Below are positions 28,595 to 41,051 of a DNA stretch of 64,000 bases, piece after piece; the stretch's first letter is position 1, and each line of letters starts with the position of its first letter. The stretch comes from Pseudothermotoga hypogea DSM 11164 = NBRC 106472 (GTDB lineage Bacteria > Thermotogota > Thermotogae > Thermotogales > DSM-5069): contig NZ_CP007141.1 in the NCBI RefSeq assembly GCF_000816145.1, positions 186,001 to 250,000 on the forward strand, in the 5' to 3' direction. Below the pieces are notes generated by a model. That model saw nothing but the letters and a program-made list of their open reading frames with translations. It did no database searches and was not told the DNA's origin. The position numbers and the translations under genes were made by a program.

Positions 28595-28881
28595 ACCCTC
28601 TCAACCTCCTTTAATATATCACTCTTAATTTCCTCTCTAAGAAGCTTTTCCCTCACAAGGTCAACCTCACAACCAAGAAGCTTTTCAAGTTCATCCCACA
28701 ACTCAAAAAATTTGAGCCCAATTGGTCTCTCAATTTCAATAAGAATATCTACATCGCTTGTTTCTTTTTGCTCACCCCTTGCATAAGAGCCAAATACTCC
28801 GAGTATAACTACACCGTATTTTTCCCTTATCTCCTCTTTGTGCTCACTGAGAATCTCTTTAATCTCCTCTAAGCTCTTCAT
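28591..28881 (-). CDS. mntA: MntA-like minimal nucleotidyltransferase antitoxin
   Basis: The 96-residue protein carries the GSX10DXD motif (G31, S32, D43, D45 in VFGSYARGEQ...DVDILIEI) of minimal nucleotidyltransferases. As the antitoxin of the HepT/MntA pair it would inactivate HepT by AMPylation. The ATG overlaps the stop of the methyltransferase N-chain by 4 nt and its own stop overlaps the hepT start by 4 nt. GC is about 39% over 28621-28860 by hand count. The order, antitoxin before toxin, would let the antitoxin be made first. Confidence 0.92.
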   Translation of the reverse strand: MKSLEEIKEILSEHKEEIREKYGVVILGVFGSYARGEQKETSDVDILIEIERPIGLKFFELWDELEKLLGCEVDLVREKLLREEIKSDILKEVERV

Positions 28882-30368
28882 CCTTTCTCCTCCTCCAATT
28901 CGACAGGCGGAATCTGGGAGAGGTGGGAGAGGTTCTCTAGCGTCTCATCAAGTACAGAATTCCAACCACTTGGATGTTCATATACGCACATTTCTACATA
29001 ATCCCATAACATCGGCAATGCCTGTCTACTATAGGTAAACCCGACTGCCTCAGTTTGTGGAATTAAGCGACATAAGGAAGAATTCCTATCAGCCAACCTA
29101 TTTATCCCAAGCCCCAAATAACTCACCACTGCCTTTGCATACTCCTCATCGTACCCCTCTTCGATCATCTTTTTATATGCCTGTCTCACCTTTTCTGTGA
29201 AAGTAATCAGAGCGAGCTTTTGTCGGGGGTTGAAAAGGTCGCCCCATTTGAACATGCCATACCTTTGTACACGAAAACCAAGTGTCTCTTTTGGTGGTAA
29301 TGGCTCATCTGGCACAGGATCGATCCCCCACTCTTCCATCAACTTTTGCCTCTTCACCTTAAGCTGCTCCTCCGCCTTCCTGAACACCTCTAAGTCTCTC
29401 TCCGTCGCCAGTCTGTAGTGTTTGCCGTCTGAATTCTTCTTTCTCAGAACGACGACGATCATCCTCTCCCCTGTTCTGCCAGTTTGAAACAGTTTTCGAG
29501 TCGCCTTGTCGTCTATGACGTTACCGCACGCGGGACAAACAACGAATGCCTTGGAGACGGTACCCTTGGATGAATCGAAATCTTTCGGCATCGCTTCGTA
29601 CCCATCCCCGACAATTTTAAATTCGACCTGTTTTCCATCCACATACGGGTAGAGGAAGATCTTCTTCTTGTCCTTGTTCGCGAGCCAGTATTGTCGCATC
29701 AGCGGTATTTCTATTCCACAGGACGGATTCTGGCATGGCACTGTCCTCGCCCAGATGTATCCAACTGGGATCGAACCGTCTTCGTCCTCTGGATAGTAAC
29801 CGCCAAGTTCCTTCCTCGACTCTTCCGAAACCCACCTACCCCATCTCTTTACGTCTTCGACCAGCCGATTGGCCTGTCTTTCGACCTCGACCATCCCCAC
29901 TCTTTCTTTGATCCTCGTCACTCTTCCGTACTTCTGGGGGTATTCGAGGGTACACTTCAGGATGAGCACCGCTACTGGGTTGTACTCGACGGCGTGTGTC
30001 TCGCAACCGAGCCTGAGAGCCTCCAGAGGTATCGAGCCTCCTCCCGCGAATGGGTCCAAAACCCTCGGTGGTTTTCCTCCGTTGGCGTTGAGTATGTCTC
30101 GCCTCGCCTTTTCGACGATCTGTCGGTTCAACGAGTTTTCCCACTTCGAAAGCTCCACTATGAACTGTTGCTTTTTGTTCCACTCCGCAGGATCATCCTC
30201 GGCCAAGATCAACGCAGCGTAGGACGTTGCCCTCGAACTCGCAAGGGGTCGTCTTGCCCACCAAATATGAAGTGTGGAGATATGTCCATGTCTTACGAGC
30301 TTTTCTTTTCGGGAGATATCGCTCACTTCCTTGAGGGGAAAGCTTTGTTCTATGAACCTTCTTTCCAC
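28878..30368 (-). CDS. DUF1156-type adenine DNA methyltransferase, N-terminal chain (split gene)
   Basis: The 496 residues start with the DUF1156 signature (FIEQSFPLKEVS, then RHGHISTLHIWWARRPLASS). The SAM-binding motif I is DPFAGGGSIPLEAL (about 105-118). A zinc ribbon is formed by CQNPSC (212-217) and CPACG (278-281). The chain stops at LSHLSQIPPVELEEEKG, just where relatives continue into the DPPY-containing part. I place the start at the GTG at 30368, with GAGAGGTG eight bases upstream and five bases after the helicase stop, not at the ATG at 30404 inside the helicase gene. The last ~100 codons are more AT-rich than the rest. Confidence 0.88.
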   Translation of the reverse strand: MERRFIEQSFPLKEVSDISRKEKLVRHGHISTLHIWWARRPLASSRATSYAALILAEDDPAEWNKKQQFIVELSKWENSLNRQIVEKARRDILNANGGKPPRVLDPFAGGGSIPLEALRLGCETHAVEYNPVAVLILKCTLEYPQKYGRVTRIKERVGMVEVERQANRLVEDVKRWGRWVSEESRKELGGYYPEDEDGSIPVGYIWARTVPCQNPSCGIEIPLMRQYWLANKDKKKIFLYPYVDGKQVEFKIVGDGYEAMPKDFDSSKGTVSKAFVVCPACGNVIDDKATRKLFQTGRTGERMIVVVLRKKNSDGKHYRLATERDLEVFRKAEEQLKVKRQKLMEEWGIDPVPDEPLPPKETLGFRVQRYGMFKWGDLFNPRQKLALITFTEKVRQAYKKMIEEGYDEEYAKAVVSYLGLGINRLADRNSSLCRLIPQTEAVGFTYSRQALPMLWDYVEMCVYEHPSGWNSVLDETLENLSHLSQIPPVELEEEKG

Positions 30369-30373
30369 GATAA

Positions 30374-33300
30374 TCACACCTCTCTTTTTCCTTTGCTCTT
30401 CCATTCTTCCGGTTCGACCAGGTAACGAACGACCTCGACCTTCTCGAAGAACTTCAAGTTCTCCGCTGGGTTGTTGACGACGTAGAGCTCAGGGTTCGTC
30501 GCTGCGTTCACAACGATGTACAACCAATAATCGTTCTTGAGTTGTTTGGCCTTCATTAGCTCGTTCGGAGTCAGGGCTATTTGACCACACCCTGCCCTCG
30601 CCTTCACCTCGATGTACCTGACTTCCCCTTCACCCTTGGAACGAATATCGAATCCGAGGTTCTCCCTCGAGACATCCTTTGGTTCTCTTCCATGCTTTCT
30701 TTCGTATTCCATGGCGATCTGTATTCCGATCCGTTCGATCTCTTCATCTCGAATCATCTCGTCGGCCGTTCGAGCGACAACCCTCACGACCGTCAAGAGC
30801 TCCAGGAAGGAGATAACCAAGTGTTGTTCTTGTTGGATTTCTTTTTCGAGTTCTTCTCTTGCCCTCTCATAGCTTTTCTTCTGCTGATCCTTGTTTAGGA
30901 TCGCAAGATCCACCTTTTCCCCGAAGGACTGTCTCTCGTAGAGTTCCGAGAGCTCCGCGTCCAGTTCACCTATTAGGTAGTCGAGGGACCGCAAACCATA
31001 CTTCCTCTTGATTTCTGCTTGTCTTTCTCTCTCCCTGCGCAGCTGCTCTTTGTACTTCTCCACGGCTTTTATCACGAACGGTAGAACCTCGCTCTCGCTC
31101 GCATTCAACGGTTCGACTGTCCCTTCGAACGGGACCAGATCCCAGAGGAGGGCTGGGTCTACTTCCCTCTTCTCTTTTCCATCATCGTAGATGGCGAAGA
31201 TCTTGCGCGCCACGACCTCGCTTCTTCCATCGACGATCTCGCCCATGTAGAACCAGATGAGCCCGTCGTATTTTCCAGAAGGATCTTCGAAGGTCGAGCC
31301 CTTCTTGACACCCTCGCGAAATTCTGTCACCACCCACTCGATCAACGCCTCCAAGAGCGGATGACCGAAGGACACGAACTCGGAATCTGGTTCTCGAAAG
31401 GCCTTTTCTTTGTCGAAAGTGATCTTTCTGTAACTTTTCATGAGTATTCCAAACTTGTTCTTGAACTCCAATTTTTCTGCTATTTTCTTAATTTCGTAGA
31501 GGATGGATCGCACCGTCAAGAAGCCATCCCTGGTTTTTTCCCATTCACCTCCAAGCCTTCTGAATGCCCTCTTGAAGAACTCCTCAACGTACTCGGGTAC
31601 GAGTCTGTATTCTTCGGCTTTCTCAAACATTTCTTTGATTCTTGAATGATCTATGTACTTTGTTGCGAGGCTTTCGCCCAGCATCTCCTTGATCCTTTCG
31701 ATGTACTCTGGGTCAACCTTGACTCTTTCATCCAACTCCTTCAACACTTCGTCCATGGTTTTCGCGTTCGTGACGGCATCGACGATCAGCTGGTGGAAGT
31801 CCTTGTCAGGATAGATCTGACCGATTATGTCAAAGACCTTATCGCTGCCAAGTTTTTCTCTTATTTCTTCCAACTTGCTCAAGAGTTTCGCTAAGACCTC
31901 GCCCTCCCTGGTGTCCTCCGTGACCAGGTTGAAGATGTACACGTCTTTCTGCTGACCGTACCTGTGGATCCTACCCATTCTCTGCTCCAAGCGCACTGGA
32001 CTCCAAGGGATGTCGTAGTTAATCATGACGTGACAAAACTGCAGGTTGATACCCTCGCCCGCAGCTTCAGTCGCAACCATGATCTGGGTCTCTTCTTTGA
32101 AAAGCTTCTCCGCCTTGATTCTCTCTTCAAGCTTCATTCCCCCATGGATGTAATTGACTTTGTAACCCCACTTTCTTATCTTGTCAACGAGGTATTCTAA
32201 GGTGTCTCTCGATTCAGTAAAAATCAATACCTTGGCGTTTCCACCCATTTCGCTCGATTTTTTGAACCCATCTTCAATGGCTTTTCTGAGCTTCGAAAGC
32301 TTCGCCTCACTCTCGCTGCGTACGATGTCATCAGCTCTCTTCATCAGTTCTTGGATGATCTTGATCTCGCCTGTGAGCTCATCTCGATCCGTAGCAAACG
32401 TCAATGTTTCCCACTCTTCCTCCCTTTTCCACCTTTCCTCCTCCTCAAGATCCTCAAGCGTTTCGTAGTCCAAGTGGTATTCTTTCTGCTTTTCCTGTCC
32501 TTTTGCGAGTATTTCTTCGAGCCTTCTCTTTCTCCTCTCCAAAGACTTCATGAGTGCGAACGTGCTCGATGCCATTCTTCTCTGGAGAATCACGAGTGCG
32601 AAGGCCACGTTTTTCTTCTTGTCGTTCTTCAGTCCCTTGTTGTACTGCTCGATCACATAGCGCGACACCTCGTTGTAGAGCTCTTTCTCCCTCTCGGAGA
32701 GCTTGAATTTGACAGTGTTTGTGAACCTCCTGGTGAAAATCGGATTGTTGTTGAAGTCTCGAAGGTCTTCTTTGAGCCTACGTATGAACAACGGATTGTC
32801 TCGGTTTTTCAAAGATTCCTCAACCATCTCAGGATTTGCGAAGAAACCTGGCTGAAGCAGGTCCAAGAACAACCTGAAATTCTCCGGATCTCCCCTGTGT
32901 GGAGTTGCAGTAAGGAAAAGCAAGTGATTTGCCACCTTCGAAAGAACCTCTCCCAACCTGTACCTCTTGGTCTTCTCGGTCTTGTTTCCATAAGAGTAAG
33001 CCGCCATCTTGTGGGCTTCGTCGACAACGACTAGATCCCACCGGACCGAGTTCAGCGTTGGTAGGATGTCGTCCTGTTTCGCGAAGTCCAAGGATGTGAT
33101 CACCCGGTCGTTGATTTCCCAGGGATTTTCACCGTAGTGGGCATCGAACGTGTGTCTATCCAAAACCGTGAACTTCTCGTCGAATTTTTCGGAAAGTTCT
33201 CGCCGCCACTGGTCTTTCAAATGTCCTGGTACCACTATCAATATCCGTGAGGCCAGCTTTCTCAGCCTCAACTCCTTAATTATCAAACCCGCCATTATCG

Positions 33301-33685
33301 TCTTCCCTGCACCCGGGTCGTCGGCTATCAGAAATCTCACCTTCGGTTGCTTCAGAACATATCCGTAGACCGCCTCTATCTGGAAGGGCAGTGGGTCGAT
33401 CTTGGAAACGTTCATCGCAAGGAATGGATCAAACAAAGACGCGTATTTGAGGCGGGTGGCTTCTATGAAGAGAAAAGCGTCTCTCGCCGGAAAGGAAAAG
33501 TCAATGGTTTGGCTGACGATCTGTAGCTGCGTTAACTCTGACTTTCTCAGAAAGCGGTTGACATACCGTTTGGTGTGTAGGGTGGAACCAACTATTTGAA
33601 CGTGCTCACCGAAGTCCACGATTTTGTCCACCCTCACCGGTTCGTTCGCGATGTTCCCTTTTACAATATCCCCCTCTTTCAACAT
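30374..33685 (-). CDS. SNF2-family helicase with C-terminal DUF3883-like domain
   Basis: The 1103-residue protein is the first gene of the defence-type operon. The SNF2/DEAD core has Walker A in DDPGAGKTIMAG (about 122-133), DEAH in VVVDEAHKM (about 222), the motif III region LFLTATPHRGD, and motifs V and VI in ATEAAGEGINLQ and EQRMGRIHRYGQ. A charged coiled segment interrupts the core (about 370-430). The C-terminus resembles DUF3883: LGFDIRS followed by RYIEVKAR, a D...ExK pattern of PD-(D/E)XK folds, so it may be a nuclease or DNA-binding module. The ATG at 33685 follows AGGGGG. Confidence 0.91.
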   Translation of the reverse strand: MLKEGDIVKGNIANEPVRVDKIVDFGEHVQIVGSTLHTKRYVNRFLRKSELTQLQIVSQTIDFSFPARDAFLFIEATRLKYASLFDPFLAMNVSKIDPLPFQIEAVYGYVLKQPKVRFLIADDPGAGKTIMAGLIIKELRLRKLASRILIVVPGHLKDQWRRELSEKFDEKFTVLDRHTFDAHYGENPWEINDRVITSLDFAKQDDILPTLNSVRWDLVVVDEAHKMAAYSYGNKTEKTKRYRLGEVLSKVANHLLFLTATPHRGDPENFRLFLDLLQPGFFANPEMVEESLKNRDNPLFIRRLKEDLRDFNNNPIFTRRFTNTVKFKLSEREKELYNEVSRYVIEQYNKGLKNDKKKNVAFALVILQRRMASSTFALMKSLERRKRRLEEILAKGQEKQKEYHLDYETLEDLEEEERWKREEEWETLTFATDRDELTGEIKIIQELMKRADDIVRSESEAKLSKLRKAIEDGFKKSSEMGGNAKVLIFTESRDTLEYLVDKIRKWGYKVNYIHGGMKLEERIKAEKLFKEETQIMVATEAAGEGINLQFCHVMINYDIPWSPVRLEQRMGRIHRYGQQKDVYIFNLVTEDTREGEVLAKLLSKLEEIREKLGSDKVFDIIGQIYPDKDFHQLIVDAVTNAKTMDEVLKELDERVKVDPEYIERIKEMLGESLATKYIDHSRIKEMFEKAEEYRLVPEYVEEFFKRAFRRLGGEWEKTRDGFLTVRSILYEIKKIAEKLEFKNKFGILMKSYRKITFDKEKAFREPDSEFVSFGHPLLEALIEWVVTEFREGVKKGSTFEDPSGKYDGLIWFYMGEIVDGRSEVVARKIFAIYDDGKEKREVDPALLWDLVPFEGTVEPLNASESEVLPFVIKAVEKYKEQLRRERERQAEIKRKYGLRSLDYLIGELDAELSELYERQSFGEKVDLAILNKDQQKKSYERAREELEKEIQQEQHLVISFLELLTVVRVVARTADEMIRDEEIERIGIQIAMEYERKHGREPKDVSRENLGFDIRSKGEGEVRYIEVKARAGCGQIALTPNELMKAKQLKNDYWLYIVVNAATNPELYVVNNPAENLKFFEKVEVVRYLVEPEEWKSKGKREV

Positions 33686-33724
33686 CCGAGAGCCCCCTTG
33701 AGACAAGTCGGCTTTTCATGTATT

Positions 33725-33791: not shown

Positions 33792-33821
33792 TTGGAATAC
33801 ACGACGCCGCCGTGGTATTAT
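33792..33821 (+). promoter_or_regulatory. Promoter of the his operon
   Basis: TTGGAA (33792-33797) and TATTAT (33816-33821) are spaced by 18 bases. The leader peptide ATG begins 20 bases after the -10 box, so the transcript's 5' end is short and the leader RBS (AGGTGA) lies right at its start, as in classical attenuators. Confidence 0.6.
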
Positions 33822-33841
33822 ACTGTCAAAGGTGAACGATC

Positions 33842-33931
33842 ATGAGTGTGTTTGATCGCAAACTTGAAACTCTGAATCTCGTGCACCATCACGTGTTTGA
33901 CCCGGTAGCTTTCCCACCGGGCGTCACGTGA
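33842..33931 (+). CDS. hisL: his operon leader peptide
   Basis: A 29-codon frame with AGGTGA six bases before its ATG contains three consecutive histidine codons, CAC CAT CAC (codons 15-17), and ends at TGA 33929-33931. It lies immediately before RNA segments that can fold in two exclusive ways. This is the hallmark of ribosome-mediated attenuation: low charged tRNA-His stalls the ribosome at codons 15-17. The peptide itself needs no function. The symbol is used by analogy with enterobacterial hisL. Confidence 0.8.
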   Translation: MSVFDRKLETLNLVHHHVFDPVAFPPGVT

Positions 33932-33989
33932 TGGTGGAATTTGGAAGGCTACCGGGTCACATCCGAAAGGGTGTGACCCTTTTTCTTTT
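33884..33989 (+). promoter_or_regulatory. Histidine-responsive transcription attenuator
   Basis: Four segments can be paired by eye. Segment 1, CACCATCACGTG (33884-33895), includes the His codons and is the exact complement of CACGTGATGGTG (33925-33936). Inside that hairpin CCCGGT (33901-33906) pairs with ACCGGG (33916-33921). The alternative pairs GACCCGGTAGC (33899-33909) with GCTACCGGGTC (33948-33958), 11 perfect pairs. That antiterminator consumes the 5' arm of the terminator at 33954-33979. A ribosome stalled at the His codons masks segment 1 and favours the antiterminator. With histidine plentiful the terminator forms. The fold is inferred from complementarity. Confidence 0.86.
33954..33989 (+). 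terminator. Rho-independent terminator of the his attenuator
   Basis: GGGTCACATCC-GAAA-GGGTGTGACCC forms an 11-pair stem with one G-U pair and a GNRA loop, followed by TTTTTCTTTT. The next gene's SD, AGGAGGGAGAGG, comes right after. Confidence 0.92.
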
Positions 33990-34003
33990 AAGGAGGGAGA
34001 GGC

Positions 34004-34849
34004 TTGAAAAGAATCGACAAACTCGTTCGTTCTTTCGTTGATCAAGCGATGGCTGAAGGCTTCGAGCTGTTTCTGAGTCCAGAAACCGAAGTGTTGAGAG
34101 ATCTTTCGCAGATCAACGACAACGTTGTGTTCTTCCAGGCCAAGAACGGACAGTTGTTCAAGCTCAGAGACGATTACACAACGACCATCGTCGAGTTCTT
34201 CAACAAGAACGCATCAGATTCGCTGAGAGTTTGGTACTCAGGTTTCGTTTATCGTTACGATCAAACGGGGCAAATTCAGAACACCTTTCAGCTCGGTTTG
34301 GAAATCGTTCCCTACAACTCACCCCAAGACAGTTTCGTGGTCTTGAGGGTCATGCTCGAATCGATCCTCCGCTCGCTCACAGACGAATTGCTCGTTGAGA
34401 TAGGTGATTCACGGGTGATAGAAAAGTGCGTCCAGCACGTGCCAAAGAAGTTCAGAAAAAAACTCTTCGAGCTCATAGACAGAAAGGATGTGTCTGAATT
34501 GGAGTTTTTCGCATCTTTGAACGACCTGGATCTGAGCGACGTGCTGAAACTCGTTGAAGCCAGTTTCACCAAAAGGAGCGTGAACCAGCTGAAAGAATTC
34601 GAGCTGGATCCATCGATCGAAAGAGAAATAGTTGAGCTCGTGGATTTTCTGTCGGGATTTTCCGGAGTAACGGTGGAGATAGATTTTTCACTCGCCAGAA
34701 CCGTTGAAGAGTACGATGGACCCACTTTTATCTTTTTCGATCTGAAAGACCCTGCACTCATCGCCGCCGGTGGAAGGTACAGGGTGAACGAACGCACACT
34801 GGGAGTCGGTGGAACGATCTTCTTGGAGGAGAAAGCATGGTCAAGATAG
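34004..34849 (+). CDS. hisZ: ATP phosphoribosyltransferase regulatory subunit HisZ
   Basis: The 281-residue protein resembles the catalytic core of histidyl-tRNA synthetase but without the anticodon-binding domain: DNVVFFQAKNGQLFKLRDDYTTTIVEFF, split here as DNVVFFQ and LRDDYTTTIVEF, then WYSGFVYRYD and QLGLEIV. It is the HisZ regulatory subunit needed by short-form HisG to start histidine synthesis. The TTG start has AGGAGGGAGAGG upstream and lies 15 nt after the attenuator T-tract. The 3' end overlaps hisG by 13 nt. The length is somewhat short for HisZ but includes the conserved motif 3-like GGGRYRVNE region. Confidence 0.88.
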   Translation: MKRIDKLVRSFVDQAMAEGFELFLSPETEVLRDLSQINDNVVFFQAKNGQLFKLRDDYTTTIVEFFNKNASDSLRVWYSGFVYRYDQTGQIQNTFQLGLEIVPYNSPQDSFVVLRVMLESILRSLTDELLVEIGDSRVIEKCVQHVPKKFRKKLFELIDRKDVSELEFFASLNDLDLSDVLKLVEASFTKRSVNQLKEFELDPSIEREIVELVDFLSGFSGVTVEIDFSLARTVEEYDGPTFIFFDLKDPALIAAGGRYRVNERTLGVGGTIFLEEKAWSR

Positions 34850-35463
34850 CGCTCGCGAAGGGAAGGCTCGAAGATGAAGCGTTCGCGTTCTTGGAAAGAT
34901 GTGATTTTCAATTCAAAGAAAGGAGTGAGAGATCTCTGATCGTCGAGGACGTGGAGGAGCAGTTGAAGATCTTCATCGTGAAACCTTCGGACGTTCCAAC
35001 CTACGTGTTCAACAACGTTGCAGACGTCGGTATCTGCGGCACGGATTCGATAGTCGAATCGCAGTTCAGACTCGTTCAGCCCATGAAACTGCCGTTTGGG
35101 AAAGCGAGGATGGTCGTGGCGGGCTTGGAAGGCTTCAAGGTGAAGAACGGAAGTGTCAGTGTGGCGACGAAGTTCCCAGTTAGTGCGAAGCTCTATTTCG
35201 ATTCGAAGGGGCTGGACGTGAAGATCATAAAATTGCACGGGTCAGTGGAGCTCGCACCGATCGTGGGGCTCGCACCTTTGATTGTGGACATCGTCCAGAC
35301 GGGAAGGACTTTGAAGGAAAACGGACTTTCGATCTTGGACGAAGTGTACCCCATAAGCGCGGTTGTGACGTTGAACGACGTGGCTTACAGGATCAAACGT
35401 GCCGAGATTCTGGACTTCCTTGGAAGGTTGGAAAGGGGGCTTGAGCGTGAGGGTACTCGTTGA
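34837..35463 (+). CDS. hisG: ATP phosphoribosyltransferase, short form
   Basis: The 208-residue HisG catalyses the first step of histidine synthesis, joining ATP and PRPP. Its N-terminus IALAKGRLEDEA, the ADVGICGTDSIVE block and the PRPP-binding VDIVQTGRTLKENGL are diagnostic. It lacks the C-terminal regulatory domain of long HisG, so it depends on HisZ, encoded just upstream with a 13-nt overlap. The ATG follows GGAGGAGAAAGC. Confidence 0.96.
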   Translation: MVKIALAKGRLEDEAFAFLERCDFQFKERSERSLIVEDVEEQLKIFIVKPSDVPTYVFNNVADVGICGTDSIVESQFRLVQPMKLPFGKARMVVAGLEGFKVKNGSVSVATKFPVSAKLYFDSKGLDVKIIKLHGSVELAPIVGLAPLIVDIVQTGRTLKENGLSILDEVYPISAVVTLNDVAYRIKRAEILDFLGRLERGLEREGTR

Positions 35464-36736
35464 ACCAACGAAAGGTCAGATTTTCGAAATCTTGGAAGAG
35501 AGAAAGACAAACTTTCTGAATATCGAAGAAAATGTGAGGCTCATCGTCGAGAACGTCAGAAAGAACGGTCAGAGCGCTCTGGATGAGTACATTTCCAAGT
35601 ACGAAAAATGTGCGCTCAAAGGTGAGCAGATCTTGGTTCGACAGGAAGAGCTTGAATCGGCAAAGGTCGAGCCGGAGTTCGAAGAGGCGTGTGAGAAGCT
35701 TATCGAACGGCTCGAAGCGTTTCATTCGATGCAACTGGAACGATCGGTGTGGAGCCTGACAAAAAATGGCTCCTTCACGGCGCAGTTGGTTAGGCCCATC
35801 GAGAGCGTCGCGATCTACGTGCCCTCGGGAAAGAAGGTCTACTTCACAACACTTCTGATGTGTGCAATTCCTGCGAAAATCGCGGGAATCGAAAGAATCG
35901 TTGTAGCAAGCCCAGCTGACGAAGAGGGTAAACTTTCGCCATACGTGTTGCATCTGTGTCGAAGGCTCGGTGTGAAGGAAGTTTACAAGATGGGTGGTGC
36001 GCACGCAATCGCAGCACTCGCATACGGAACGGAGGTTGTAAAGAAAGTCGACAAAATCGTCGGACCCGGCAACGCCTACGTTTCTTGTGCGAAGAAGTTG
36101 GTCTTCGGTGATTGTGGTATAGACTCGGTAGCAGGCCCCACGGAGCTTTTGATCGTCGCAGACGAAACTGCTGACCCTAAACTGGTGGCAATCGACATGC
36201 TCGCACAAGCCGAGCACGACGAGATGGCGATGAGCGTTCTTTTGACGAACGACGAAGATCTGTTGGACAGAACGCTCGAAGAACTCGCAAAACAGTTGAA
36301 CGAATTGAGTGAGCCGAACAGATCGATCGCTCAAGTTTCGCTCGAGAGAAACGGACTTTCCATCTTGACGAAAGATTTGAACAACGCGATCGAGTTCGTC
36401 AACCTTTTCGCTCCAGAACATCTCGAATTGTTCTTAGAAGATCCCTTCTCACTTTTACCAAAGGTCAAGAACGCAGGTTCCGTATTCCTCGGAAGTTGGT
36501 CGGCGGAGGCGTTCGGTGACTACGGCATAGGACCCAACCACGTGCTTCCGACTTCGACCAGCGCAAGGTTCTCTTCTGGCTTGAGCGTTCAAGATTTTTT
36601 GAAGAGGATCTTCGTAACGCGCGTGAGCGAGGAAGAAGTCCTCAAGGAAGGAAGGTTCTATTCAACCTTGGCGAGGCTTGAGGGCTTCGAGGCACACGCT
36701 CGCTCGATCGAAGTGAGGATGGAGGGATCGAGGTGA
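35447..36736 (+). CDS. hisD: Histidinol dehydrogenase
   Basis: The 429-residue enzyme performs the last two NAD-dependent oxidations from histidinol to histidine. Signatures seen are PIESVAIYVPSGK, KMGGAHAIAALAYGTE, DKIVGPGNAYV, AGPTELLIVAD, QAEHDEMA and GPNHVLPTS, covering the zinc-binding Gln and His residues. The start is taken at the GTG at 35447, seven bases after GGGGG; the frame extends 16 codons upstream inside hisG. It overlaps hisG by 17 nt and hisC by 4 nt. Confidence 0.96.
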   Translation: MRVLVEPTKGQIFEILEERKTNFLNIEENVRLIVENVRKNGQSALDEYISKYEKCALKGEQILVRQEELESAKVEPEFEEACEKLIERLEAFHSMQLERSVWSLTKNGSFTAQLVRPIESVAIYVPSGKKVYFTTLLMCAIPAKIAGIERIVVASPADEEGKLSPYVLHLCRRLGVKEVYKMGGAHAIAALAYGTEVVKKVDKIVGPGNAYVSCAKKLVFGDCGIDSVAGPTELLIVADETADPKLVAIDMLAQAEHDEMAMSVLLTNDEDLLDRTLEELAKQLNELSEPNRSIAQVSLERNGLSILTKDLNNAIEFVNLFAPEHLELFLEDPFSLLPKVKNAGSVFLGSWSAEAFGDYGIGPNHVLPTSTSARFSSGLSVQDFLKRIFVTRVSEEEVLKEGRFYSTLARLEGFEAHARSIEVRMEGSR

Positions 36737-37770
36737 GTTTCAAAGCGGTGGTTGAAAGGATTAGAAAAGACGTCGAAGCGTACCAGAGCGAAACGAGATC
36801 TCCTATCTATCTGGCCTTGAACGAGAATCCTTATCCTTTTCCAGAGGAGCTGATCCGACAGTGTTTCGAATCGATCGATCCGTCGAAGGTGAACCTGTAC
36901 GTCGATTCTCCTTCGAAGGAGTTTTTGAAAGAACTCGTGGACTACCTTTCGACTGATTCTTGGAGAGCGCGAGAAGAGCAGATCAGCGTCGGAAACGGAG
37001 CGGACGAGATCATATACGTGCTCTTGCTGATGTTCAAAGACCTCTCCATATACGTCTTTCCTCCAACGTACAGTTGCTACGAGATCTTCGCCAACGCGTT
37101 GGGTGTGAAAGTGAACAAAGTGCCGCTCAGAGGAGAAAGAATCGACACGAAGACGTTGAAAGGTCTGCTGAACGAAGACTGTGTCGTGTTCTTGCCGAAT
37201 CCGAACAATCCGACGGGTCATCTCTTCGAGGAAGAGGAGATCTTCTGGTTGTTGAAGACCAAGGCTCTCTTGATTCTCGATGAAGCGTATTTCGAGTTCT
37301 CTGGAAAAACCTTTGCACCTCTGATAGAACAATTCCAGAACCTCGCGATCTTGAGAACCTTCTCGAAGGCTTTCAGCCTCGCTTCTCAGAGGATCGGATA
37401 CATCGTCGCGAATCCTTCTTTGATCGACGCTTACAACAGGGTCCGTCTGCCGTACAACGTGAGCTATCTGGGTCAAACCTTTGCGACGATAGCGTTGAGA
37501 AACAAACGTATTTTCCAAGAACGTGTGAGAAAGATCATCGAGGAAAGAGAAAGACTCAAGAACGCGTTGAGGAGCATGGGTTTGAAGGTGAACGATTCGA
37601 AGGCGAACTTCGTCTTCGTCTATCTCGAACGGGAGCGAACTGAGAGAGTCTACAGAGCCTTACTGAAGCGAGGAATCACGGTGAGAAAGACAGAGTTCGG
37701 GCTTCGCATGGCCGTCGGTCAGCCAAAACAGAACGATCTTCTAATCGAGACATTGGAGGGATCGTTGTGA
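36733..37770 (+). CDS. hisC: Histidinol-phosphate aminotransferase
   Basis: The 345-residue fold-type I PLP enzyme makes histidinol phosphate from imidazole acetol phosphate and glutamate. ALNENPYPFPEELI near residue 26, GNGADEIIYVLL, FLPNPNNPTGHLF, LDEAYFEF and the PLP lysine in RTFSKAFSLASQRIGY identify it. The GTG start overlaps the hisD stop (GTGA), and the end overlaps hisB by 4 nt. Confidence 0.95.
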   Translation: MSFKAVVERIRKDVEAYQSETRSPIYLALNENPYPFPEELIRQCFESIDPSKVNLYVDSPSKEFLKELVDYLSTDSWRAREEQISVGNGADEIIYVLLLMFKDLSIYVFPPTYSCYEIFANALGVKVNKVPLRGERIDTKTLKGLLNEDCVVFLPNPNNPTGHLFEEEEIFWLLKTKALLILDEAYFEFSGKTFAPLIEQFQNLAILRTFSKAFSLASQRIGYIVANPSLIDAYNRVRLPYNVSYLGQTFATIALRNKRIFQERVRKIIEERERLKNALRSMGLKVNDSKANFVFVYLERERTERVYRALLKRGITVRKTEFGLRMAVGQPKQNDLLIETLEGSL

Positions 37771-38363
37771 AGATAGAAAAACAAACGAATCGATGCTGCG
37801 TGGAAAGGGAAACCCTCGAGACCAATATAAAGCTGTGGCTCATAGACGATGGGAAGGGAGAGTTCACTGGATCGAGCAGGATCGGCTTTCTCGATCACAT
37901 GCTCAAGACGTTCTGTAGATTTTCGACCCTGTCTTTGAGCTTGGAACAGTTCGAGGCGGACTTGCACGTGGACATGCACCACGGGGTTGAGGACCTTGCA
38001 CTTGTCTTGGGTACGGCTTTCAGAGAGCTCTTAGACTATTCCAGAGCGAAACGTTTTGGCTATGCGATCGTTCCGATGGACGAGGCGCTGACGATGTGCT
38101 CGATCGATCTTTCTGGAAGAAGCTTCTTGAATTTTCAGGCTTCTTTTGAAACACAAAGCATCGGTGATTTCCCCGTCGAATTGATCGAAGAGTTCTTCAG
38201 GAGCTTTTCCAGCAACGCAAGGATAACTCTGCACATTGTGAAGTTGTTTGGGAAGAACTCACACCACATCGCCGAATCGATGTTCAAAGCCTTTGCTATT
38301 GCTGTGAGAAGCGCGATCGAGAAGATTGAATCTACCCAGAGCACGAAAGGGGTGATAGATTGA
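37767..38363 (+). CDS. hisB: Imidazoleglycerol-phosphate dehydratase
   Basis: This is the 198-residue monofunctional HisB. Metal-binding repeats are FLDHMLKTF and DLHVDMHHGVEDLALVLG in the first half and NSHHIAESMFKAFA in the second. It converts imidazoleglycerol phosphate to imidazole acetol phosphate. There is no phosphatase domain, so histidinol-phosphate phosphatase must be encoded elsewhere. The GTG start and both ends overlap neighbours by 4 nt. Confidence 0.96.
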   Translation: MKIEKQTNRCCVERETLETNIKLWLIDDGKGEFTGSSRIGFLDHMLKTFCRFSTLSLSLEQFEADLHVDMHHGVEDLALVLGTAFRELLDYSRAKRFGYAIVPMDEALTMCSIDLSGRSFLNFQASFETQSIGDFPVELIEEFFRSFSSNARITLHIVKLFGKNSHHIAESMFKAFAIAVRSAIEKIESTQSTKGVID

Positions 38364-38971
38364 ACGTGGCCATCGTTTCAAGCATGCCTGGAAACGTGAT
38401 GAACTTGTACAGGGCCTTGAAGGGGCTCGAACAGAGCTTGAACGTGGAACTTTTGGAAAAACCGTCACAAAGCTCTTTCGACGTGATCTTCTTGCCAGGC
38501 GTTGGGCACTTCGAAGAAGCGATGCGACGGCTCGGAGAGAACGAAATGGACAAATTCTTGCTGAACCAAGCTGAAAAGAGCTTCATCGTGGGAATATGTC
38601 TTGGTATGCAGATCCTCTTTGAAGAGAGCGAAGAGAGTGTTTCAAGCCGATCGGTTCGAGGCCTTGGTCTGCTCGAGGGCAAGGTAACGAAACTGAAGGC
38701 ACAAGTTTTACCCCACGTCGGTTGGAATCAAGTGAGATTTCAGAACGACAAGTTCAAGGACCTGGATGGAAGGTATTTTTACTTCGTTCATTCGTACAGG
38801 GTCCTGTGCGAAGAATCTTTGGTTGTCGCAACCTGTGAGTACGAAGAAGAGTTCCCAGTGGTTGTCATGAAGGACAAGGTCTTGGGAGTTCAGTTTCATC
38901 CGGAGAAGAGCCATGCGGTGGGAAAAGCCTTTTTGAAGAGGGTGTTGGAATGCGCGTCATCCCAGCGATAG
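38360..38971 (+). CDS. hisH: Imidazole glycerol phosphate synthase, glutaminase subunit
   Basis: The 203-residue class I glutamine amidotransferase has the nucleophile Cys in VGICLGMQILFE and the His-Glu pair in VQFHPEKSH. LPGVGHFEEAM is the oxyanion-side loop. It feeds ammonia to HisF. A TTG start overlaps the hisB stop by 4 nt. The 3' end overlaps hisA by 22 nt. Confidence 0.96.
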   Translation: MNVAIVSSMPGNVMNLYRALKGLEQSLNVELLEKPSQSSFDVIFLPGVGHFEEAMRRLGENEMDKFLLNQAEKSFIVGICLGMQILFEESEESVSSRSVRGLGLLEGKVTKLKAQVLPHVGWNQVRFQNDKFKDLDGRYFYFVHSYRVLCEESLVVATCEYEEEFPVVVMKDKVLGVQFHPEKSHAVGKAFLKRVLECASSQR

Positions 38972-39678
38972 ATCTTTACGATGGTCGCGTCGTGAGATTC
39001 GAACGAGGCGACAAAAAGAAGATTCATCTTTACGATTACGATCCTGTAGAATTGTTGAAACTCTTCGCAGAAGAAGGTTTTCAACTCGTGCACGTTGTGG
39101 ATCTGTCGTGCGCGATCGATGGATCAATGGCAAACGAGGTCGTGTTGAAGAAGATCTCACGGAGAAATCTCGCAAGATTCGTTCAAATCGGTGGCGGCAT
39201 CAGGAGCCTGGAGCGAGCGATTCAGCTGGTACAGATGGGGTTCAGAAGGCAGATACTGAGTTCCGCGTTGATCGAAGATCCGACGTTGATCTGCAAGTTG
39301 ATGCAGCAGGGCATCGACGTGGTGTTCTCGCTCGACACCGCTAATGAACGGGTACGAACGAAGGGATGGAACGAGACAAGCGAGCTGAACGTCGTGGAGC
39401 TTTTGAAAACACTGAAAGAGCTCGGCTTGAAAGAGGTGATTCACACCGATGTCGAAGCCGATGGAACACTCAAGGGAAGAAAACTCGATTTCACCAAACA
39501 CTTGGCACAGAAAACGAATTTGACCTTCATCGTCGCAGGTGGGATAAGTGGCGTTGAAGACCTCGAGGATGTCAGAAGGTTAAACCTCGAAGTTCCATTC
39601 GTCGATGGCGTCATCGTGGGCAGGGCCTTCTACGAGGGAAAGATAACACTGAAGGAGATGAAGAGTTATGCTTGCTAA
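38950..39678 (+). CDS. hisA: ProFAR isomerase
   Basis: The 242-residue TIM barrel begins [19 protein letters not shown] and has [12 protein letters not shown] with the catalytic Asp, [11 protein letters not shown], and [11 protein letters not shown] with the second catalytic Asp; IVAGGIS is a phosphate loop. It opens the ribose of ProFAR by an Amadori rearrangement. The gene is embedded between hisH and hisF with overlaps of 22 and 11 nt. Confidence 0.96.
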
Positions 39679-40438
39679 GCGCATCATCGCGTGCTTGGAT
39701 GTGAAGGATGGTGTGGTCGTGAAGGGAAGACAGTTCGAGAACCTCGTTTACGGTGGAGATCCTGTGGAATTGGCACAGAAGTACTGCGACTCTTGCATTG
39801 ATGAGTTGGTCTTTCTCGATATTACCGCTTCCTTGGAATCGAGAAGGACGATGATTCACGTGGTGAAGAAGGTCGCGGAGAAAACGAACATTCCCTTCAC
39901 CGTGGGTGGGGGTATTCGTGACATCGAAACTGCATCGGAGTTGATCTATGCCGGTGCAGACAAGGTGAGCATCAATACCGCCGCGGTAGAGAATCCGAAG
40001 CTGATAGAAAAAATTGCATCAAAGTTCGGTTCTCAAGCTGTCGTAGTCGCAGTCGATGCTAAGAGGACTCAACTGGGCTTCGAAGTCTTCATCCTTTCTG
40101 GAAAGAAGGCGACAGGTATCAAATTGGAAGACTGGTTAAGAAATGTTCAAGAGCTCGGTGCGGGCGAAATCCTTCTAACAAGCATAGACAAAGATGGCAC
40201 AAAAGAAGGCTTCGACCTTGAACTCATCTCGTTGGCCAGAAAGGTCTTGAAAATTCCACTGATCGCATCGGGCGGTGCCGGAACAAAACAACATTTTCTC
40301 GAAGCGTTCAAGGCAGGTGCGGATGCGGCGCTCGGTGCATCGGTGTTCCACTTCGGCTTGATCGATGTTCAAGATTTGAAGAGATACCTTTCTCAGAACA
40401 AAATCAACGTGAGACTGGATTGTTGGGAGGTCGAATGA
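39668..40438 (+). CDS. hisF: Imidazole glycerol phosphate synthase, cyclase subunit
   Basis: The 256-residue TIM barrel opens with [20 protein letters not shown]. The catalytic Asp residues are D11 in that block and the later Asp in [20 protein letters not shown] and ASGGAGT are the phosphate loops. With HisH it makes imidazoleglycerol phosphate and AICAR. The ATG overlaps hisA by 11 nt. Confidence 0.97.
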
Positions 40439-40439
40439 C

Positions 40440-41051
40440 GTGCTGAGACCCGTAGTTGTCCAAGAAGCTTTCACGAAAGAAGTTCTCATGCTGGCTTACG
40501 CTGACGAAGAGGCTTTGAGATTGACGAAAGAAACTGGCTTTGCACACTTCTATTCGAGATCGAGACAAAAGATCTGGAAGAAGGGTGAAGAATCGGGGAA
40601 CACGATGAGAGTTTTGCAGATCGTTGAAGATTGCGACAGAGATGCCTTGTTGTACCTTGTGGAATTTCCAGAGAACAAGGTGGCGTGTCATACAGGAAGA
40701 AGGAGTTGTTTCTTCAACGTCGTCCATGGAGAAAACGTGAAGGACGGACTTGGATTTCTTCAAAAACTCCACAAGATCGTCGAAGACAGGAAAAACAATC
40801 CCACAGAAGGTTCTTACACGACGAGCCTGTTCAGGACAGGTTTGGACGAAATCCTCAAGAAGTTTGGCGAAGAGAGCATAGAAGTCATACTGGCAGCGAA
40901 ACACCAGACAAAGGAAAGACTCATCAACGAAATTTCAGATCTCATATACCATCTGATCGTGTTGATGTGCGCCGAGGATGTTTCCTGGAACGACGTGATC
41001 GGGGAACTCGAGAAAAGATCAAAAAAATGTCCGGAGAATGAGAGATCATGA
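40440..41051 (+). CDS. hisIE: Bifunctional phosphoribosyl-AMP cyclohydrolase / phosphoribosyl-ATP pyrophosphatase
   Basis: The 203-residue fusion has HisI at about 1-110 ([34 protein letters not shown], the metal-binding DCDRDALL and CHTGRRSCF) and HisE at about 112-203 ([39 protein letters not shown]). It performs steps two and three of the pathway. A GTG start lies just after the hisF stop. It is the last his gene. The 212 bases that follow contain only a weak hairpin (AGACTC/GAGTCT at 41053) without a T-tract. Confidence 0.95.

Follow-up and report, generated by a model that had tools for sequence, protein, structure and literature searches.

A candidate ribosome-mediated attenuator before the hisZGDCBHAF-IE operon of Pseudothermotoga hypogea and related leader elements in Thermotogota

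Leader-peptide attenuation is mostly associated with Proteobacteria and Actinobacteria, apart from sporadic cases in Firmicutes. In the 64,000-nt stretch of the Pseudothermotoga hypogea genome analysed here (the window), the spacer in front of hisZ contains a short ORF with three consecutive His codons and, behind it, an intrinsic terminator. The locus thus raises the question of whether a member of the Thermotogota adjusts histidine biosynthesis by means of a translated leader, and how far such control extends in the phylum. An earlier note on this DNA had proposed a ribosome-mediated attenuator, a reading borne out by conservation, by compensatory changes and by the exclusion of a T-box: the his leader is very probably a classical transcription attenuator sensing charged tRNA-His, as judged from sequence-based evidence. 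Taken alone, the his element represents a known mechanism, and the greater interest lies in the phylum-wide set of candidate attenuators to which it belongs.

Anatomy of the his leader

The attenuator sits between a divergent gene and the operon hisZGDCBHAF-IE. Since the divergent neighbour (30374-33706) lies on the - strand and is directed away from the leader, the terminator can serve only a transcript begun in the spacer itself. The following features were assigned, all on the + strand:

33792..33821, +, promoter with -35 TTGGAA, 18-nt spacer and extended -10 TG-G-TATTAT (from sequence)
33828..33835, +, Shine-Dalgarno sequence AAAGGTGA of the leader ORF (from sequence)
33842..33931, +, leader ORF of 29 codons plus TGA, encoding MSVFDRKLETLNLVHHHVFDPVAFPPGVT (from sequence and homologous leaders in relatives)
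33884..33892, +, regulatory codons CAC CAT CAC, leader His 15-17 (from sequence; three to four His in all same-scaffold relatives)
33884..33895, +, 5' arm of hairpin 1 (anti-antiterminator), holding the His codons (folding, compensatory changes)
33898..33914, +, 5' arm of the antiterminator, 17 nt (folding, covariation)
33901..33906, +, 5' arm of the hairpin 1 inner stem, CCCGGT, pairing with 33916-33921 (folding, covariation)
33916..33921, +, 3' arm of the hairpin 1 inner stem, ACCGGG, coding for part of Pro-Pro-Gly (folding, covariation)
33925..33936, +, 3' arm of hairpin 1, holding the leader stop (folding, compensatory changes)
33943..33959, +, 3' arm of the antiterminator, sharing 33954-33959 with the terminator 5' arm (folding, covariation)
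33954..33979, +, intrinsic terminator hairpin, 11 bp, GAAA loop (folding, covariation)
33980..33989, +, terminator T-tract TTTTTCTTTT (from sequence)
33990..33996, +, Shine-Dalgarno sequence AAGGAGG of hisZ (from sequence)
34004..34849, +, hisZ, ATP phosphoribosyltransferase regulatory subunit, TTG start (TIGR00443 8.4e-27, PF13393)
34837..41051, +, regulated operon hisG, hisD, hisC, hisB, hisH, hisA, hisF, hisIE (family matches)

All parts listed in the earlier note were found again, among them the 29-codon leader with CAC CAT CAC (start ATG at 33842), the leader stop TGA at 33929-33931 within the 3' arm of hairpin 1, and the correctly spaced promoter with its TGn extension and ribosome binding site. 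The promoter block recurs as TGGTATnnTA in relatives, and AGGTGA stands at the matching place in their leaders; in the window, the leader's Shine-Dalgarno sequence lies almost on top of the inferred transcription start. The hisZ of the window is a short, diverged member of its family, and its TIGR00443 match falls below the curated cut-off.

Hairpin 1 is formed by a perfect 12-bp inverted repeat (33884-33895/33925-33936) whose 5' arm contains the His codons, as described earlier, and it encloses an inner stem that the earlier note did not see. The antiterminator had been given as 11 bp and must be corrected to 17 bp, including one G-U pair (33898-33914/33943-33959). Its exclusion of the 11-pair terminator (GGGTCACATCC-GAAA-GGGTGTGACCC, followed by the T-tract) stood, positions 33954-33959 being common to both structures. 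The leader folds at -58.1 kcal/mol compared to -35.1 kcal/mol for shuffled sequences (z = -5.96; none of 200 dinucleotide shuffles was equally stable). Deletion of the His arm, which mimics a stalled ribosome, turns the minimum-energy fold into the antiterminator (z about -6.2).

On the other side of the spacer, window positions 28878-33706 (- strand) encode a large SNF2-like helicase related to DISARM DrmD (NF038317 5e-123, below the cut-off), which is followed by an apparent DNA methylase. With this helicase and the methylase-like gene, a phage-defence island likely adjoins the his operon.

Conservation and covariation in Thermotogota

Homologues of the window's hisZ were sought in 41 relatives, and the sequence in front of them was inspected. 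Elements on the same scaffold were present in Pseudothermotoga (HHH or HHHH), in family f2 (mostly HHHH) and in two f3 genomes (HHH). A covariance model built from 13 of these same-scaffold his leaders (R1) was run over 103 Thermotogota genomes and also matched two f2 genomes on which it had not been trained (L120, L121; E about 3e-29) and one f5 genome (L125; E = 5e-12), and altogether the same scaffold with three to four His codons occurs in 16 genomes of four families. In a fifth family, f10, R1 gave a single weak match (L159). When the sequence preceding hisD was inspected in eight further f10 genomes, hisZ turned out to be preceded by a diverged leader, HHHTWR, that has a terminator of its own, so that the diverged HHH version amounts to nine genomes. 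The loss of His codons or pairing in close relatives, named by the earlier note as an observation that would speak against an attenuator, is hence not what the relatives display: both are kept. With hisD being present in 34 genomes, a His leader stands before hisZ in 25 of the 31 hisD-bearing genomes examined and was not found in the stretch read in the other six. Across these leaders the spacing between the His codons and the antiterminator arm is constant, with variation at the synonymous positions of the codons. The f2 His leaders were also retrieved independently (E = 1e-8 to 1e-5) by a second model, R2, whose training set contained non-His leaders only. Outside the phylum, a simple scan of 79 hisG loci gave a His-run leader in three (L040, L048, L066).

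Covariation, which the earlier note had suggested for relatives, was assessed in an alignment of 15 sequences (14 distinct rows), and compensatory changes were found in hairpin 1, the antiterminator and the terminator. In this alignment, which was fitted to the hairpin/terminator structure and thereby favours those stems and not the antiterminator, 95.5% of the cells in hairpin 1, the inner stem and the terminator are paired, and 34 cells are changed on both sides (shuffle mean 13.3; 0/500 shuffles as high). Slid versions of the hairpin 1/terminator pairing gave 0-10 such cells. The antiterminator reached 15 both-side-changed cells (shuffle mean 6.8; 0/500 as high), and its slide control was partly matched at -1 because Thermotoga-type leaders carry a one-base bulge. 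Of particular weight is a three-way covariation linking A33900 in the antiterminator, the shared U33957 and A33976 in the terminator: the triplet reads A-U-A in five rows, G-C-G in seven and C-G-C in two, a pattern that would not be expected unless selection acted on each of the two mutually exclusive folds.

Two genomes of family f2 (G021 and G017; L014 and L015, with L120 and L121) have a transposase gene, probably of the IS200/IS605 type, between the attenuator T-tract and hisZ, which parts the His switch from its operon. At another locus (L119, G004:C10 near 53434), a 10-N scaffold gap is flanked by a copy of the His leader on each side, which probably reflects an overlap in the assembly rather than a true duplication.

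Proposed mechanism and alternative explanations

Whereas the parts, their conservation and covariation, the exclusion of one fold by the other and the codon positions are given by sequence and computation, we infer from them the stalling of ribosomes on uncharged tRNA-His, a kinetic order of folding and a read-through that responds to histidine. When histidine is scarce, the leading ribosome would halt on the His codons and mask the 5' arm of hairpin 1; with hairpin 1 blocked, the 17-bp antiterminator could form and RNA polymerase would enter hisZGDCBHAF-IE. When histidine is plentiful, the ribosome would proceed over the 5' arm of the antiterminator to the stop codon and thereby mask that arm, while in the absence of a ribosome, or after its release, hairpin 1 should form first. 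In either case, the terminator would be free to form and transcription would end at the T-tract.

This scheme was explored in a model in which the A-site was placed on each leader codon and only RNA downstream of the ribosome was folded; it replaced a first version permitting pairing around the ribosome, which gave unphysical results. With the polymerase at the terminator loop (37 °C), the antiterminator had a predicted probability of 1.00 as long as the A-site lay anywhere between codon 11 and His 17, and of 0.00 once the A-site had reached codon 18 or beyond, and at 65 °C the picture was nearly the same (0.99-1.00 with the A-site up to His 17). The range of positions allowing antitermination consequently ends at His 17, making the His codons the last stall positions that permit it. 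Without a ribosome, hairpin 1 is predicted at 1.00 before the antiterminator 3' arm has been synthesised; at equilibrium, the antiterminator beats hairpin 1 until the 3' arm of the terminator is made. Termination in the absence of translation would therefore depend on the kinetic order of folding, as it likewise does in classical attenuators.

Two alternative folds by themselves would also fit a terminator controlled by a ligand, in which histidine itself or an RNA-binding protein would act on the hairpins and the short ORF would play no part. Such a riboswitch or protein-controlled attenuator appears very unlikely, as the distance of the His codons to the antiterminator arm is fixed while their synonymous letters vary, the codons of other leaders in the phylum switch to suit another downstream gene, no extra conserved unpaired core suited to a ligand is seen in the his leader, and no Rfam family matches it. 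A T-box specific for tRNA-His would be the obvious candidate by analogy to many Firmicutes, where his genes are often under T-box control (PMC9413887), but we regard it as extremely improbable: the T-box family RF00230 has no match in the window at the gathering score or up to E = 10, and none was detected in 103 Thermotogota genomes by a search that was positive in B. subtilis and other controls. Given how common intrinsic terminators are, and that three His codons can turn up by accident in a short ORF, an ordinary terminator with fortuitous hairpins in a divergent spacer, devoid of any regulation, also had to be considered. This explanation is highly improbable in view of the conservation, the three-way covariation, a stability z of about -6 and the exact placement before hisZ in 25 genomes, and there is no upstream + strand gene that would need the terminator.

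A further option retains the attenuator and adds a second programmed pause, with Pro-Pro-Gly at leader codons 25-27 slowing the ribosome on the antiterminator 5' arm and thus securing termination when histidine is plentiful. Pro-Pro-Gly is a known slow motif without EF-P. It follows exactly seven residues past the last His in every Pseudothermotoga, Thermotoga-type and f3 leader, whereas the stop position varies, and in the ribosome model an A-site at 33920 leaves the antiterminator unformed. However, conservation of these letters (CCACCGGG) is already explained by RNA pairing alone, since they also make up the inner stem on its 3' side, and the f5 leader (L125) has Leu-Pro-Gly while f10 leaders have none. 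An obligatory pause was dropped on these grounds, and an accessory one is rather unlikely.

Compared to hisL of Escherichia and Salmonella (RF00514), the Thermotogota leader shares consecutive His codons in a leader peptide, the logic of hairpin 1, antiterminator and terminator, and an intrinsic terminator directly before the his operon. It differs in having its stop in the 3' arm of hairpin 1, hisZ as first gene, and an unrelated peptide and RNA sequence; hisL has seven His codons, the Thermotogota leaders three to four. Rfam RF00514 gave no match in the window at the gathering score or up to E = 10, and none of the leader loci of the phylum that were submitted to Rfam matches a family. T-boxes of Firmicutes and Actinobacteria likewise respond to the charging state of tRNA by acting on a terminator in front of amino-acid genes, but they bind the tRNA directly and need no leader ORF.

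The earlier note was not aware of a described attenuator of this kind in the phylum. The 2004 survey by Vitreschak et al., which predates the Thermotogota genomes used here, is said to mention Thermotogales in its abstract among groups with candidate amino-acid attenuators, and reportedly covers branched-chain amino acids, His, Thr, Trp and Phe and not Arg, Lys, Met and Asn. In the open literature, a description of a Thermotogota attenuator was not found, in line with the earlier note, whose claim of novelty is nevertheless weakened in that this older survey may mention Thermotogales attenuators already. His attenuators are described in Proteobacteria and some Firmicutes (PMC9413887), and as of 2010 none had been shown outside Proteobacteria and Actinobacteria (Naville and Gautheret, PMC2965389, citing Vitreschak et al., 2004). 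Candidates exist in the B. cereus group, Peptostreptococcaceae and Erysipelotrichales (Ashniev et al., 2022, PMC9413887; Naville and Gautheret, 2010, PMC2965389), and neither article names Thermotogota elements. The Firmicutes candidates likewise combine a short His-run peptide with attenuator, antiterminator and terminator before the his operon or hisZ, but belong to another phylum and use another scaffold.

Candidate leader attenuators across the phylum

The his leader belongs to a wider set, which the earlier note did not see. Besides the his elements, R1 and R2 together pick up more than 40 further candidate attenuators in Thermotogota whose leader codons match the downstream gene, three of them in the genome of the window, which was searched by covariance models and read in stretches. 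Downstream genes were named by NCBIfam and Pfam, and others were read from their start. As in the his leader, the regulatory codons lie just upstream of the antiterminator arm, and in most of these leaders the stop codon is past the antiterminator 5' arm, 20-45 nt before the terminator.

In the window's genome, an Arg leader ending in LNIRRRAGCRRVQVVGT and a stop (RRR; L202, G000:C1:963437-963553) directly precedes argG; similar RRR leaders precede argG in families f1, f5 and f9 and argJ in family f10. A Trp leader ending in VQKNWWWCCPDSVG and a stop (WWW; L204, G000:C1:476671-476707, - strand) has attenuator folds and stands before a TrpB2-type tryptophan synthase beta chain, its start codon having to be CTG or an upstream GTG. 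The third (L205, G000:C1:285070-285103, - strand), a Trp leader containing YAYWWFRGK, also has attenuator folds and precedes a TrpX-like binding protein of a tryptophan ABC transporter, a TrpX-type assignment below the curated cut-off. Elsewhere, KK..K leaders were found before dapF and lysC, MMM or MIM leaders before metQ, an aspartokinase and a homocysteine-biosynthesis protein, WW leaders before trpE, and mixed K/R/H leaders before basic amino-acid binding proteins, permeases and peptide transporters. In genome G052, five consecutive Asn codons (YKFNNNNNPLDIGRWG, then stop) with alternative hairpins precede asparagine synthetase A (asnA; L240).

The antiterminator duplex has a median energy of -25.4 kcal/mol over 52 leaders, and in 41 of the 52 at most two of 200 shuffles were as good; in many leaders the margin over shuffles is smaller for hairpin 1 than for the antiterminator, and in L123 hairpin 1 is weak. 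In the single-amino-acid classes, 119 of the 246 codons lying 3-20 nt ahead of the antiterminator arm are cognate to the downstream gene, compared to 31 of 909 elsewhere in the leader, and swapping of class labels among 34 representatives gave a maximum of 55 in 10,000 swaps against 95 observed, figures that are to be read with regard to the selection of these leaders by models trained on such leaders. The metHact class (two leaders) is a label without a family match behind it, and the mixed-amino-acid classes were defined only after the leaders had been inspected. The fold switch was reproduced for trpB2, trpX, asnA and trpE, and was less clear for the two argG leaders folded. Identity between the antiterminator 5' arm and the terminator 3' arm was set aside as a test for all leaders, as its median of 5 nt is too short for significance in most of them. 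Weak model matches without a leader ORF or a fitting downstream gene (e.g., L160-L162, L165-L167, L169-L171, L212, L233, L238, L241-L244 and L246) were judged to be chance terminators.

On balance, we consider it fairly probable that in Thermotogota, where no T-box is detectable, much of the synthesis and import of amino acids is governed by ribosome-read attenuators that form a set spanning the phylum, with specificities for His, Arg, Lys, Met, Trp and Asn as well as for mixed basic amino acids; a branched-chain type and an unassigned Gln-Pro-Glu-Pro leader before citrate synthase apparently belong to it too. Within lineages, one RNA scaffold would then have changed its specificity by codon swaps before the antiterminator, and the Arg-, Lys-, Met- and Asn-specific as well as the multi-amino-acid (including mixed basic) leaders would extend beyond the classical list of attenuators. 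Conservation of attenuation in a deep-branching thermophile phylum would imply tight coupling of ribosome and polymerase there, and the mechanism would have arisen or spread more widely than Rfam records. Moreover, many specificities on related scaffolds make the change of the sensed amino acid testable, and the set provides regulon predictions (e.g., TrpX in the window's genome, MetQ and HcyBio elsewhere) for organisms with scant regulatory data.

Several further leaders were observed in this context. In f10, a NNQPEPK leader precedes citrate synthase (L145, L148, L224, L226), and the sensed amino acid could be Gln, Pro or Glu. In f8, a Val/Leu/Ile-rich leader containing VVYIVLILPAGG stands before an amidohydrolase of the Xaa-Pro dipeptidase type (L133, L134, L157, L235, L237). 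Finally, Met-type leaders (MIM..) at L136, L156, L209 and L211 precede a protein of about 190 amino acids that has no Pfam or NCBIfam match in the two cases tested (L136 and L156), and its position suggests a role in methionine metabolism.
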